A DNA stretch of 27,367 nt from a virus. The position numbers were made by a program, and so were the translations under genes. The stretch lies in IMG/VR virus record IMGVR_UViG_3300021090_000367, positions 1-27,367 of that record, one strand, 5' to 3'. Numbering within the stretch: position 1 is the stretch's first letter; every line of letters starts with the position of its first letter. Positions 3,542 through 9,204 of the stretch are shown in pieces. The notes below the pieces were generated by a model. It was given only the letters and a program-made list of their open reading frames with translations, was not told where the DNA came from and did no database searches.

Positions 3542-4096
3542 ATGAGTTTGCAATCGTGGCAAGAAACGTTGATCACGTCGCAGGTTGATGGCGCAGCACT
3601 GACCGCCGCTGCCGCTGCGACGTGCATTCCAGCCGCTGCGAAATACACCTTTCCACCGAATTCGTTTGCGATTGGCAAGCAGTATCGGGTTAAGGCGTCG
3701 GGTCGTATTTCGTCCGTTATCACGACTCCCGGAACGGCGCGATACGATCTGCGGCTTGGTGGCACGGTGATCTTCGACAGCCTTGCGATTCTGCTTGACA
3801 CGGCGGTTGCTGCAACTACCGTCGGTTGGCTGCTGGATATTTTACTGACGTGCCGCGCGATCGGGGCAACGGCAAACTTCATGGGGCAAGGGCTGTGGAC
3901 GTCCTACAATATCTTGGGCACTCCGGCCACACCGCCGAAGGGTGCGTTGTCAGCGATCTTGCCGTGGAACAGTGCGCCTGCTGTGGGCGGTAACGTCGAC
4001 TCGACGACGTCGTTGCAGCTGGATATGTTTTTCACGCAGACCGTTGCCACGGGTTCGATGACGGTGCATCAGTATTCCGTTCAGGCGTTGAACTAA
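3542..4096 (+). CDS. Putative small tail protein
   Basis: A 184-residue protein with a strong ribosome binding site (AAAGGAGATCGG) 15 bases after the tape measure stop. It is rich in Ala, Thr and Gly, with alternating hydrophobic residues suggesting a beta-sandwich; no signal peptide or enzymatic motif is seen. The stretch around residues 45-75 (Gly/Arg/Ser/Thr, then a regular strand pattern) resembles virion structural proteins in general. Position between tape measure and tail hub makes a distal tail or tail-tip component likely. No family is recognised, so the role is inferred from context alone. Confidence 0.6.
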   Translation: MSLQSWQETLITSQVDGAALTAAAAATCIPAAAKYTFPPNSFAIGKQYRVKASGRISSVITTPGTARYDLRLGGTVIFDSLAILLDTAVAATTVGWLLDILLTCRAIGATANFMGQGLWTSYNILGTPATPPKGALSAILPWNSAPAVGGNVDSTTSLQLDMFFTQTVATGSMTVHQYSVQALN

Positions 4097-4106
4097 GAAG
4101 ATCGCC

Positions 4107-7100
4107 GTGCCCTTTACTCCGTTTCGTGGCCCCCGTCGCATCGGCCCTGGGGCTGTTTCCACAGGTGCCGCGTCGTTTAGCACGCAACCGATCGTTGCGT
4201 CAATTACGCCGTCGATTGCGCGCACTGCAGGCGGCACCGCCGTTACGATTTCCGGGTCAGAGTTTCACACCGACTCAGAAGGCGCACCGCCACTTGTCTT
4301 CATCGGCGCGTTTCAAGCTACAAACGTTGTCGTTGTAGACGCGAACACAATTACCGCTGATTCGCCAGTTGCGAACGTAACAGGCACGGTCGACGTTACC
4401 GTTACGACGATCGGCGGTAGCTTTACACTCAATCAAGCCTTCACGTTTTACGCGTCTACCATTTCGAAAGTTACTCCGGCTTTCGCTAACATCATCGGCG
4501 GTGTTGATGTTGTTGTTGAGGGTTTCAACTTCATTACTGGTAGCACGATCACGTTTGGCGGTGCCGCTGTTACTGCCACAACTTTCATTGACAGTGAACA
4601 TTACCTAGTTACCATCCCGAATCATGGACAAGGGTTCGTTGACGTCACGATCGTTGATATCGGCGGTGCAACATTCACGCTGCCGAACGGGTTTCAATAC
4701 ACACTTCTTACGCGTGGGAATGACATTCGCAGACAGCCCGGCATCACGATCAACGACGCACTGAACAACTCGCCTAACACAGCGACAGCCGCGATCGACG
4801 GAGCTAGCAACATTCCAGTTGTTGGCGAAGAATTTCAGATCATTGACACATTTGACGGATCACGGCTGCTCTTTGCCGGTTCGGTGCAAACTGTGGCGAT
4901 GCGTTACGAAGGGTTGATAGATCAACTAGTGTATGACGTCACAGCAATTGATTTTACGTATCTCCTGAACAAGTATCGCCCGTTCGGTAGTTACATTGCT
5001 GTATCCGCTAGTGGTATCGTCACCGATCTGATCCAGCGATATGCACCCGGTTTTTCGACAGCGTTTGTGCAGACCAATCTAGCGAAGGTGTCCTTTCAGT
5101 TCGATGGATCGAAAGATCTTGCAACGTGCTTGAGTGACATCGCGGCTGCGATTGGCGGCGGTCACTGGTATGTTGATTACAATCGAGTGCTGCACTTTTT
5201 TCACATCGTTCCAAGCGGCATTCAGATTCCGGAGTTTCCGCAGAGCGTTGTTCAATCAACGTCTACCACGCCACCTGTCATCACGCAAGGCGCGTCGATT
5301 CCGTCGTCATTCAGCTTCGCTGCTGGATGGTATATGTTCCAAACAACAAACGTATACAGCAACGATGTTGAGTCGATCTTAGGGCCACTCAGTGCGCCGA
5401 TCTATCTTGATGGCACGCACATACTCAACTTTTTTAACGTCGAAGTCGGTGTTGCTGTCGGTGCGCTGACTGTTGATAAGCGGCGAATTTATATGCGGCA
5501 GTTGTTACCGACGCCTGCACATTCGTCGGTCGAAACAGTTATTCCGTTCTTGCAGGTTGAGGATAACACCACTACGACGTTTACCACGTATTTCAAAGAT
5601 ACAGGTGTGAGTTCAGGCGTATTGGTGAACATTCCGGGCACCGAACCACTCCCGCGCAAATCGTTTTCTGCTCGCCCGGCTGCTCCGTCGAGTCCGCCCA
5701 GCCCAAACTATGTGCAAGGCAATGGTCCTGGCGGTGCGTGGCAATTCCGCGTAGCGTATCTCTATCAAGACGGGTCTGTGTCCTACGCCAGCGTTGGAAG
5801 TTTTGTGTTACGAGTCGGTGTGACGGTCGTTGCAGGTTTAGGTATCGCGTCGTTTTCTATGAACGGCGTTCCTATTGGTCCAGACGTGAACGGCGTGCCG
5901 GTGATCGCCCGTTTCATTTACCAAGCACTTGCGGGTATTAGCGGCACGCTTGCGGAAGCGAACGCTTTCATTAATACCGCTATGCCGGATTGGTCAACGG
6001 CAACGTCGTTTTGGATGATGGGGGATAACTCCAATACCACGATCGACGACTTGCACGCTGGCGGCACCTTCGGGAATAAGAGTCTGTTTGGACGCGGACA
6101 GAAAATGTATCTGGATCAAGTGTCTGGCGGATCCGTGCTTGAACCGGATCCGATCCCTGTGTGGCCGAATCCCGATGGTCCATTTCTGGAAGGCGCAGAC
6201 GCGCCCGACGACATTGACGATCTTGATTTGCAGCTGATTCGTAATCCGCAAGTCACGGTGAACACCGACGTTTCGCAGCTGCGCAATCGTATCTTCGTCA
6301 AGGGACGTGGCAGCACGGCGGCAGAAGCCGCATCACTAGGCGCGACGTCGATCCTTGTGGCAGATGGCAACGCGTTTTCTCTCAATGGTGGTAAAGTCAT
6401 CATTGACAATGCGCAAGTTGTCGACTACGTCACCGTGTCAGGTGTTGACAACGTCTATACGTTGGAACTTGCCGGGAGTCTGACTGCGTCGATTGTGTCT
6501 GGTGACTCAATCGTCAACTTCATGCAAGTTGACGACGTTGCCGCACAGGCGGAAATGGGCAACATTGAACGCGATGCCAACGGCGTTGTTACAGACGGCG
6601 TGCATGAATACACGGTCGTTGACGGTTCGTTGAAGACGCAGTTTCAACTTTACATGCGGGCGTTCGCTGAACTGGAACTGTTCGCACGCCCAATCGTCAC
6701 GCTCAATTACGCCACTCGGGATCCGAAGACGCGCAGCGGTAAGACGGTGCATGTTGCGTTGACGAATCCACCGATTTCAGGAGATTTTCTCATTCAGAGT
6801 GTGTCGATCGATCAGGTGCATGACGAAGCTGATGATTCACTTATGCCGCGTTACAACGCGCAGGCGTCCAGCGTTCGTTTTGACTTGAACGATCTGCTGC
6901 TGCAGATCTTGAAAGGTGGCATTCAAGGCGGATCGTCTTCAATAGGTATTATCGGTTCAGCGGTCGATCAGGTGCCGGAACCTGTGTCGTCTGGGATCTT
7001 TGCTGCGACGGTAGACATTACGCCTGCGGAGTTCCAATTGCTGTTCACGGTGCCAAAACAAATCGTGGCGGGCATTCCGGACAAGATTATCATGCCGTTG

Positions 7101-7400
7101 ATGGCTTACGCCTACATCAATGTTACGGCTGCAATCGCCACAACTCCGCAATCGCACTTCCGGTATATCAGTGCATCGCCGGGTCCGAGTGACACCAATT
7201 TCTTTACTGCGCAAGCTTTTACGCCAGGGGCGGTGCAAGAGAATTTCTTGACGCATCCTGTTGTATTGCAATCCACAGCAGGCATTCGATTCGCTGGCGG
7301 TGCCGGTTTCGAATATCACTTTACAAATCAAGCCGTGAGTGGTGGCGCTGGATCGTATGCGCGTGTCACGTTGTTGTATACGATTATGGACATACCGTAA
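4107..7400 (+). CDS. Large tail hub / tail-tip protein with IPT/TIG repeats
   Basis: A 1097-residue protein with a GTG start 10 bases after the preceding stop. Two consecutive IPT/TIG-type Ig-like domains are visible near the N-terminus (about residues 31-113 and 116-198), each with the P-x-x-x-x-x-G-G-x-x-V-x-I-x-G-x-x-F pattern followed by a Phe-Gly strand. Residues of about 205-375 resemble tail hub or baseplate modules (a DALN/FDG region, then a YLLNKYRP-like segment). The rest is beta-rich with FN3-like pieces around 410-510 and 530-580. Size and position, just before a tail transglycosylase, suggest the Tal/gpJ-like hub that contacts the host. The IPT/TIG domains probably bind surface glycans. 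Hub identity is inference; the IPT/TIG call is stronger. Confidence 0.72.
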   Translation: MPFTPFRGPRRIGPGAVSTGAASFSTQPIVASITPSIARTAGGTAVTISGSEFHTDSEGAPPLVFIGAFQATNVVVVDANTITADSPVANVTGTVDVTVTTIGGSFTLNQAFTFYASTISKVTPAFANIIGGVDVVVEGFNFITGSTITFGGAAVTATTFIDSEHYLVTIPNHGQGFVDVTIVDIGGATFTLPNGFQYTLLTRGNDIRRQPGITINDALNNSPNTATAAIDGASNIPVVGEEFQIIDTFDGSRLLFAGSVQTVAMRYEGLIDQLVYDVTAIDFTYLLNKYRPFGSYIAVSASGIVTDLIQRYAPGFSTAFVQTNLAKVSFQFDGSKDLATCLSDIAAAIGGGHWYVDYNRVLHFFHIVPSGIQIPEFPQSVVQSTSTTPPVITQGASIPSSFSFAAGWYMFQTTNVYSNDVESILGPLSAPIYLDGTHILNFFNVEVGVAVGALTVDKRRIYMRQLLPTPAHSSVETVIPFLQVEDNTTTTFTTYFKDTGVSSGVLVNIPGTEPLPRKSFSARPAAPSSPPSPNYVQGNGPGGAWQFRVAYLYQDGSVSYASVGSFVLRVGVTVVAGLGIASFSMNGVPIGPDVNGVPVIARFIYQALAGISGTLAEANAFINTAMPDWSTATSFWMMGDNSNTTIDDLHAGGTFGNKSLFGRGQKMYLDQVSGGSVLEPDPIPVWPNPDGPFLEGADAPDDIDDLDLQLIRNPQVTVNTDVSQLRNRIFVKGRGSTAAEAASLGATSILVADGNAFSLNGGKVIIDNAQVVDYVTVSGVDNVYTLELAGSLTASIVSGDSIVNFMQVDDVAAQAEMGNIERDANGVVTDGVHEYTVVDGSLKTQFQLYMRAFAELELFARPIVTLNYATRDPKTRSGKTVHVALTNPPISGDFLIQSVSIDQVHDEADDSLMPRYNAQASSVRFDLNDLLLQILKGGIQGGSSSIGIIGSAVDQVPEPVSSGIFAATVDITPAEFQLLFTVPKQIVAGIPDKIIMPLMAYAYINVTAAIATTPQSHFRYISASPGPSDTNFFTAQAFTPGAVQENFLTHPVVLQSTAGIRFAGGAGFEYHFTNQAVSGGAGSYARVTLLYTIMDIP

Positions 7401-7936
7401 TGACCGTTAATATTCACAACGGCGAAATCGTCAACGTCGCAACCAGTTTCAAGTTGGATCCGGATCTGCTGACGGCGCAAATTCGTGTGGAATCTGCGTT
7501 CCATGAATGGGCATGGAACCCGGAACCGCATTACCGTTACCTGTGGAACGTGCGAACCAACAAGCCGTTTCGTCTGTTGACCACGGCTGAACAGACATCG
7601 CAACGCCCGCCTGCTGATTTCCCTTGCTTCGCGGGCGATCCTGATCAAGAATTTTGGGCACAACAGGCGTCGTGGGGACTCATGCAGATCATGGGCGGTG
7701 TGGCCCGTGAACGTGGCTTCAAGGGCCATTACCTGACGACGTTGTGTGATCCGGCAACCAACCTCCGAATCGGCTGCGGATACCTTGCTGACCTTGTCGT
7801 CTGGGCAGACGGTGACGTGATGCAGGCATTAGCCGCCTACAACGGCGGCAAGCGCGGCAACTCGACTCCCCCATTTCGCAATCAAGAATACGCTGACAAA
7901 GTGTTTGCGGCGCGCACGACGATCTTGCGCCCGTGA
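7400..7936 (+). CDS. Lytic transglycosylase (SLT family), tail-associated
   Basis: A 178-residue enzyme whose ATG overlaps the tail hub stop (TAATG at 7399-7403), implying translational coupling. It has SLT-fold signatures: catalytic Glu31 in RVESAF, SWGLMQI at 91-97, NLRIGCGYL at 121-129 and AYNGG at 146-150. Lytic transglycosylases cleave the MurNAc-GlcNAc bond of peptidoglycan without hydrolysis, leaving 1,6-anhydro-MurNAc. An insert of about 50 residues separates the catalytic Glu from SWGLMQI and is longer than usual. There is no signal peptide. The tail location suggests local wall opening during DNA injection, although a role as endolysin cannot be excluded because no other lysin is seen in the window. 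Confidence 0.85.
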   Translation: MTVNIHNGEIVNVATSFKLDPDLLTAQIRVESAFHEWAWNPEPHYRYLWNVRTNKPFRLLTTAEQTSQRPPADFPCFAGDPDQEFWAQQASWGLMQIMGGVARERGFKGHYLTTLCDPATNLRIGCGYLADLVVWADGDVMQALAAYNGGKRGNSTPPFRNQEYADKVFAARTTILRP

Positions 7937-7955: not shown

Positions 7956-8441
7956 ATGAAGCACACGTTCATAACGATCGCGTTTCTGCTGTGGAGTGCC
8001 ACAGTATACGCGCAGGCCGCACCTGATACGTTGCGAATCACGGCAACGGATAAATTCGCTTGGACCGCCAGCGACGACGAAGGCAAGACGTTCGGCGATC
8101 CGCCTGTGCAGCTGGTAACAGGGTATCACTTGGAATTCTTCTTGAAGTCCAACGTGACGATCACCGGCACGACGGCTGCGCCGATCTTTGTGCCGAAAGC
8201 CGGTGCCACAGCATCGTTGCTGTTCAACAACATCGCACACACCGCACCCGATGTCACTAGGGAAGAAATATCGACGCAAACTCTTTCGACGTTCATCGGT
8301 GTGAACGTGAACGTTGAATATGTCGCGTTCATGCGTGCGGCGGGATCCGGAGGTATCTCAATCCTATCGAACGGTGTTGGCCCTTTTGGCTTACTGGCGG
8401 CACCGAAAGCCCCTGCCTTTCGAATCCGCCGCATTCCGTAA
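7956..8441 (+). CDS. Signal-peptide protein with FN3-like segment; host of candidate frameshift
   Basis: The start is placed at ATG 7956, behind ATAAAGGAAC, because the protein then opens with a clear Sec signal peptide: Lys-His, a hydrophobic core of about 12 residues, then VYAQA before a likely cleavage site near residue 20. The 161-residue zero-frame product has an FN3-like pattern: W-x-x-S-x-D-x-G around 34-41, GYHLEF near 54, and a terminal SNGVGPFGLLAAPKAP segment. A signal peptide is unusual for a tail-region gene and suggests periplasmic or surface delivery, for example in adsorption, superinfection exclusion or lysis. The final 17 codons overlap a second frame entered by a candidate -1 slip. 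The protein is not assigned to a named family. Confidence 0.72.
   Translation: MKHTFITIAFLLWSATVYAQAAPDTLRITATDKFAWTASDDEGKTFGDPPVQLVTGYHLEFFLKSNVTITGTTAAPIFVPKAGATASLLFNNIAHTAPDVTREEISTQTLSTFIGVNVNVEYVAFMRAAGSGGISILSNGVGPFGLLAAPKAPAFRIRRIP
8381..8430 (+). promoter_or_regulatory. Candidate programmed -1 frameshift signal, C CCT TTT plus stem-loop
   Basis: The heptamer C CCT TTT at 8381-8387 has CCT and TTT as zero-frame codons, fitting X XXY YYZ. After an 8-nt spacer, GGCGG (8396-8400) pairs with CCGCC (8426-8430). A 3x3 internal loop then leads to CGAAAG (8404-8409) paired with CTTTCG (8417-8422) around a 7-nt loop. The -1 frame is open from 8318 to the stop at 8714-8716, so slippage gives one continuous 253-residue protein. 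No upstream SD-like element is seen. Confidence 0.6.
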
Positions 8442-8449
8442 CGATTCAG

Positions 8450-8716
8450 GTGATCGATTGGTCACGCGCCGTTTCGATTGGCGCACGCGGGCGGATACTG
8501 TTTCAGTTGGTGAACGATTTTCCGATTGTGCAGCTGCAAGTTCGTTTAGGATCGCAAGTCATCGGGGAAGTCATCGGCACTGAGTTACGCGACGTCGGTG
8601 CGTTGTATTTCTCAGTGCCACGGGTTAACGGCGTTTACAATGTCACCATCTTCGCGAAAGACTCGACAGGATGCGAAGCACTCACAACCGCCGCACGTTC
8701 TGTCACCGTGCAATAG
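8450..8716 (+). CDS. Ig-like domain frame, probably the C-terminal part of a frameshift product
   Basis: This frame codes for a beta-rich module of 88 residues if it starts at GTG 8450, but that codon has no ribosome binding site. The open frame continues upstream through sensible sequence (TGGTES, then PPHSVTIQV) back to the slippery heptamer at 8381-8387. Slippage there would give 144 residues of the signal-peptide protein plus 109 from this frame. The pattern of a hydrophobic strand, PIVQLQV, a Gly-rich turn, LYFSVP, NG-x-YNVTIFAKD, then a terminal VTV strand is that of an Ig-like fold. Optional Ig-like domains added by -1 frameshifting are an established feature of phage structural proteins. 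Independent translation by coupling at the TAA (8439-8441) remains possible. Confidence 0.6.
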   Translation: MIDWSRAVSIGARGRILFQLVNDFPIVQLQVRLGSQVIGEVIGTELRDVGALYFSVPRVNGVYNVTIFAKDSTGCEALTTAARSVTVQ

Positions 8717-8775
8717 GCTGGATCATGGCGAAACTGCCTGCAATCAATATCACTGTCGTCGTCAAGAAACACAAG

Positions 8776-8798
8776 AGACGGTGTAATAAAAACCGTCT
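8776..8798 (+). terminator. Stem-loop, possible weak terminator
   Basis: AGACGG (8776-8781) pairs with CCGTCT (8793-8798) around an A/T-rich 11-nt loop and is followed by TGCCCTGATTCTTT. It lies between the Ig-like frame ending at 8716 and the gene at 8875. The T-rich tail is imperfect. The segment CGTCTTGCC also follows or closes three other hairpins in this window. Confidence 0.35.
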
Positions 8799-8874
8799 TG
8801 CCCTGATTCTTTGGACGTTTGGCCCAGTCCGAGAACAGAACATCAACGGGCCTTCAACCGGAGCACACAACATC

Positions 8875-9204
8875 ATGAACCAGCTGACCGAAACACAGTT
8901 CGTCGAAGGCACCGTCACGCCGACGACCAAGAAGGGCAATCCCGCCGAAGTTCACACGCCGGTTTTTTCGTCGTCGAACGACGCGGTTCTGAAAGTGGAA
9001 ACGGATCCGGTGAATCCGTTGGGCGTGAAGGTCAGTGCGGTTGCGCCCGGTGCGGCGCAGGCAGTGTTGACCTTTGACTCGGATCTTGGCGACGGCGTCG
9101 AAACCGTCGTGCTGTCGGCGGATTTCACCGTGATCGCAGGCCGCGCGGTCGGCGGCACGTTCGTCTTCGGCGCACCGCAGGAACAGCCGGAAATCCCGGC
9201 GTAA
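8875..9204 (+). CDS. Ig-like (Big_2-type) virion-associated protein
   Basis: A 109-residue protein with the bacterial Ig-like (Big_2) pattern: KKGNPAEV near 19-26, SSSNDAVLKV near 33-42, VSAVAPGAAQAVLTF near 52-66 and a closing VVLSADFTVIAG strand near 80-91, then an Ala/Gly/Pro tail. Small free-standing proteins like this occur near tail or capsid genes and are thought to decorate virions and bind carbohydrates weakly. The ATG at 8875 has GGAG 11 bases upstream. An in-frame ATG at 8725 would add a very basic 50-residue extension, disfavoured because it crosses the stem-loop at 8776-8798 and its ribosome binding site is weak. This is the last + strand gene before the convergence point. Confidence 0.72.
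   Translation: MNQLTETQFVEGTVTPTTKKGNPAEVHTPVFSSSNDAVLKVETDPVNPLGVKVSAVAPGAAQAVLTFDSDLGDGVETVVLSADFTVIAGRAVGGTFVFGAPQEQPEIPA

Follow-up and report, generated by a model that had tools for sequence, protein, structure and literature searches.

A candidate programmed −1 frameshift predicted to append an Ig/FnIII-like domain to a probably exported phage protein

Known frameshift-added domains and the tail-gene locus

Ig-like domains added by frameshifting are known from phage virion proteins, including the T3 major capsid protein, those of Lactobacillus A2 and Listeria A118, A500 and PSA, and the SPP1 major tail protein (Fraser et al. 2006; reviewed in PMC5009743, PMC6669499), as the initial annotation of our locus had pointed out. 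It was suggested that such arrangements arise when mobile domains happen to land in frame or out of it (PMC5009743). The locus described here resembles these systems in that a frameshift late in the base gene would give access to an optional C-terminal beta-sandwich. It differs in that the base protein carries a putative signal peptide and has no match to any virion family, and in that the base gene and its slip site are kept in a second, divergent phage. Neither the mechanism nor the type of domain is new; the differences are the signal peptide and a site conserved between divergent phages. A literature search, largely without subscription papers, returned no report of a phage in which frameshifting is combined with a signal peptide and Ig-like domains, although absence from the literature is unproven.

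Two further systems invite comparison. Tail assembly chaperone genes of the G/GT type also rely on a −1 slip at an X XXY YYZ heptamer, and both sites of this type seen here are ordinary. In the window, the 27,367-nucleotide stretch of DNA analysed in this study, A AAA AAG lies at 838-844 in the chaperone gene (503-916), with a −1 frame that runs to 1191 and matches Phage_tail_T. The L055 contig has A AAA AAC at 4717-4723. The candidate frameshift described below has another heptamer, gene and product. The second system is that of West Nile virus, whose NS1 protein is secreted. Its NS1' form extends NS1 through a frameshift at C CCU UUU (PMC11507841), identical to the heptamer in the window, but this is a eukaryotic RNA virus with an unrelated protein and serves as an analogy only.

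The window is an IMG/VR virus record with a tail-gene block in the rightward direction. The order is major tail protein, tail chaperone, Phage_tail_T, a presumptive tape measure protein (777 aa; assigned by position and size), g3542, a 1097-aa protein with TIG domains and an SLT transglycosylase, directly followed by the gene at 7956-8441. The transglycosylase (7400-7936) is 60% identical to copies in L003/L004 (6001-6480) that stand before genes unrelated to the frameshift gene, so it moves independently of that gene. The 184-aa protein of g3542 (3542-4096) has no family match and is unusually conserved (84% identity in the related phage introduced below, 47-69% in other viral contigs, L055-L060). 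Where its homologs extend further (L056, L058 and L060), the downstream genes are different and likewise unrelated to the frameshift gene.

Slip site and reading frames in two divergent phages

The zero-frame gene (7956-8441, plus strand) encodes a 161-aa protein that begins MKHTFITIAFLLWSATVYAQA and ends at a TAA stop (8439-8441). As first annotated, a slippery heptamer C CCT TTT lies in its reading frame, at 8381-8387 on the plus strand (codons GGC CCT TTT GGC), and this is the sole X XXY YYZ motif in the ORF. Across all window genes such heptamers occur in frame at 11 of 7839 codon positions. The −1 frame continues for more than 17 codons past the stop at two of the 11, the tail chaperone site and the CCCTTTT site, for 90 codons in both cases. 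Motifs of the form H_HH.U_UU.Y, which covers CCCUUUU as well as the CCCUUUC of the related phage, were among the most efficient in E. coli tests (Sharma et al. 2014, PMC4066793). The −1 frame is open across the join, as had been claimed, from 8318 to a TAG stop at 8714-8716. The −1 part of the long product (8381-8716, plus strand) comprises 111 codons and the TAG, and the joined product has 253 aa.

Viral contigs were searched using the fusion, the Ig part, the downstream gene, the tail gene, g3542 and the transglycosylase. This yielded one other carrier, L002 (IMGVR_UViG_3300036859_000414, equivalent to L048/L049/L054), which was reached via the transglycosylase query; in these searches only two genomes carry the gene. 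No relative of either part was found among INPHARED phages or in genome_contigs; the sole INPHARED match, a portal protein at E = 10, was rejected as chance. L002 has the same genes in the same order after the transglycosylase, and its proteins are 36-45% identical to those of the window (36% for the signal-peptide gene, L002 4251-4715, and 45% for the −1 part, L002 4655-4990). Its heptamer, C CCT TTC (4655-4661), shares one alignment column with C CCT TTT. The zero-frame stops are homologous (TAA at 4713-4715 in L002), leaving tails of 17 residues past the slip codons in both phages. The −1 frame of L002 is interrupted by a TGA at 4643, so that it opens just 9 nt ahead of the heptamer, and it has no ATG, GTG or TTG before 4814, which is already inside the domain. 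A frame change within the 22 codons 4646-4713 is therefore the only ordinary route to the domain in L002. Separate genes are thereby excluded for L002, and it becomes very unlikely that either record contains a sequencing error.

An error of one base can look like a frameshift, and both records are metagenomic assemblies. We therefore weighed whether the gene truly has one frame, broken by a mistake in sequencing or assembly or by a frameshift mutation of recent date. However, two independent contigs with about 40% protein identity break in the same column and have homologous stops and equal tails, and stretches of three or four T are not the kind of homopolymer that is prone to errors. We consider this explanation extremely improbable, sequencing error in particular being rejected through L002. 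Transcriptional slippage was set aside, as a run of four T is too short for it.

Coding signals also change frame at the heptamer. In both phages, a codon-usage score trained on the other genes is positive for the zero frame ahead of the heptamer and negative beyond it, and the −1 frame shows the reverse. Between the window and L002, mismatches in the zero frame before the site concentrate at third codon positions (0.66 versus 0.51 and 0.36 at first and second positions), as they do in the −1 frame past the stop (0.74 versus 0.48 and 0.35). The third-position bias is absent from the 18-codon overlap, where four of the 18 aligned −1 residues are conserved. Poor conservation is expected of a linker, yet it does not help the case for frameshifting. 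Each long product has only two cysteines, both in the −1 part; in both phages the first lies between the slip site and the zero-frame stop and the second follows 86-87 residues on. That both phages place a linker cysteine ahead of the zero-frame stop suggests that this stretch is translated in the −1 frame.

These observations also bear on whether the Ig part could be a second gene, translated by re-initiation after the zero-frame stop. The window offers GTG 8450, 9 nt past the stop, and non-standard codons stand at homologous places in the two phages (ATT 8444 in the window, ATA 4718 in L002). The module was originally described as lacking its own ribosome binding site, and ahead of the domain core, GTG 8450 is indeed the only usual start codon that the −1 part contains; it has neither a Shine-Dalgarno sequence nor a counterpart in L002. 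Instead of two genes with clear starts, L002 shows the opposite, with no start for the second frame ahead of 4814. Re-initiation would moreover leave the conservation of the heptamer without a reason, as well as sit poorly with the cysteine and open −1 frame kept upstream of the stop in both phages. We therefore judge it quite improbable.

A stem-loop (8395-8431, plus strand) is the likely stimulator of the putative frameshift in the window. It begins 8 nt past the heptamer and has the predicted 5 + 6 bp separated by a 3x3 internal loop, plus one extra U-G pair. GGCGG (8396-8400) pairs with CCGCC (8426-8430) and U8395 with G8431, and past the internal loop CGAAAG (8404-8409) pairs with CUUUCG (8417-8422). 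In L002 the stem begins 5 nt past the heptamer. The window stem has a folding energy of −15.5 kcal/mol (z −1.7) and is moderately unusual, but not exceptional within its own gene: an equally good stem occurs in 1 of 150 dinucleotide shuffles and at 18 of 240 other positions of the gene (5/150 and 2/233, respectively, for L002). In addition, a Shine-Dalgarno-like GGAG precedes the L002 heptamer by 13 nt, a spacing inside the stimulatory range given in PMC4066793. No Shine-Dalgarno-like stimulator stands at the right distance upstream of the heptamer in the window; a GGAGG of this kind ends at 8353, too far away, and was rejected.

The gene after the frameshift product occupies 8725-9204 in the window and 4987-5451 in L002. 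Its start is probably ATG 8725 (GTG 4987 in L002) rather than that of MNQL at 8875, since the ILWTFGPVxEQ stretch is conserved and changes in it are mostly synonymous. In L002, GTG 4987 overlaps the −1-frame stop as GTGA. Translational coupling may link this gene to the end of the predicted frameshift product.

The base protein and its predicted added domain

The short product consists of a putative signal peptide, an N-terminal domain and the 17-residue tail past the slip site. The gene itself has no convincing match in Pfam, PHROG, NCBIfam or PDB sequences, and the structure model of the N-terminal part (pLDDT 39) gives no usable fold. Inspection of the sequence and hydropathy identified a putative Sec signal peptide, MKHTFITIAFLLWSATVYA (7956-8012, plus strand), that is probably cleaved before Q20. 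The predicted site reads VYA|Q in the window, with Ala at −1 and Val, which is allowed, at −3. In L002 it reads ASA|Q (...SASA|Q), and A19 and Q20 are kept.

As proposed, the base protein is probably Sec-exported. A positively charged start, a hydrophobic core and an A-x-A-like site recur in L002, but the sequence itself is different, and export is deduced from these features. Frameshifting might instead be real and the protein unsecreted, its hydrophobic N-terminus being that of a virion or membrane protein and the added module one more Ig-like domain on a particle protein. The known frameshift-added Ig domains are on virion proteins (PMC5009743, PMC6669499), and the gene lies within a late tail-gene block after the 1097-aa TIG-domain protein and the transglycosylase. 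We think this unlikely, given that signal-peptide features persist in L002 despite the different sequence and that the protein matches no virion family.

The −1 part had been annotated as an Ig-like module, and structure prediction agrees. An AlphaFold2 model built from two sequences has seven main strands (pLDDT 68) and, together with structural matches, supports an Ig/FnIII-like beta-sandwich fold for 8438-8713 (plus strand). The top match, with a VIA-align Z of 9.7 and an rmsd of 2.1 Å over 90 residues, is the FnIII-like N-terminal domain of Serratia marcescens chitinase A (1edq). At 14% identity to the added domain, it shares only the fold, with no implication for function. Further structural matches are FnIII, PKD and Ig domains; Pfam and PHROG gave no match for this domain. 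The first strand of the model begins at the zero-frame stop, which makes the overlap an interdomain linker and means that the frameshift would add exactly one domain. The two cysteines could form a disulfide in an oxidizing compartment.

Proposed mechanism and implications

Wherever the protein ends up, the two genomes make programmed frameshifting at this site very likely. We also favor, with good though lesser confidence, the fuller reading in which a phage protein, probably Sec-exported, optionally gains a C-terminal Ig/FnIII-like domain through a programmed −1 frameshift. Most ribosomes would translate C CCU UUU without slipping and terminate at UAA 8439, producing a 161-aa pre-protein. 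A minority, delayed by the stem 8 nt downstream, would slip one base back, with tRNA-Pro shifting from CCU to CCC and tRNA-Phe from UUU or UUC to UUU. The slipped ribosomes would read the linker and then the Ig-like domain, giving a 253-aa pre-protein. The two pre-proteins share the signal peptide, and both should be exported. We infer slippage itself, the role of the stem, export and the disulfide from sequence.

Given that the gene follows the transglycosylase and that the added domain has a predicted Ig/FnIII-like fold, the protein may bind the cell envelope or surface. We tentatively propose a cell-envelope or surface-binding accessory protein that acts with the lytic transglycosylase encoded just upstream, although we hold this role to be doubtful. 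We give roughly even chances to the broader interpretation that frameshifting sets the ratio of two isoforms of an exported envelope protein, with and without a disulfide-stabilized Ig-like domain, and that this would be the first case outside virion proteins.

At such a locus, standard gene callers would likely give only the 161-aa protein and an orphan fragment. A slip site kept in two divergent phages, on an exported-looking protein, would show selection for making both extended and unextended forms. If this is true, more kinds of phage protein than now recognized would be known to be diversified by recoding.
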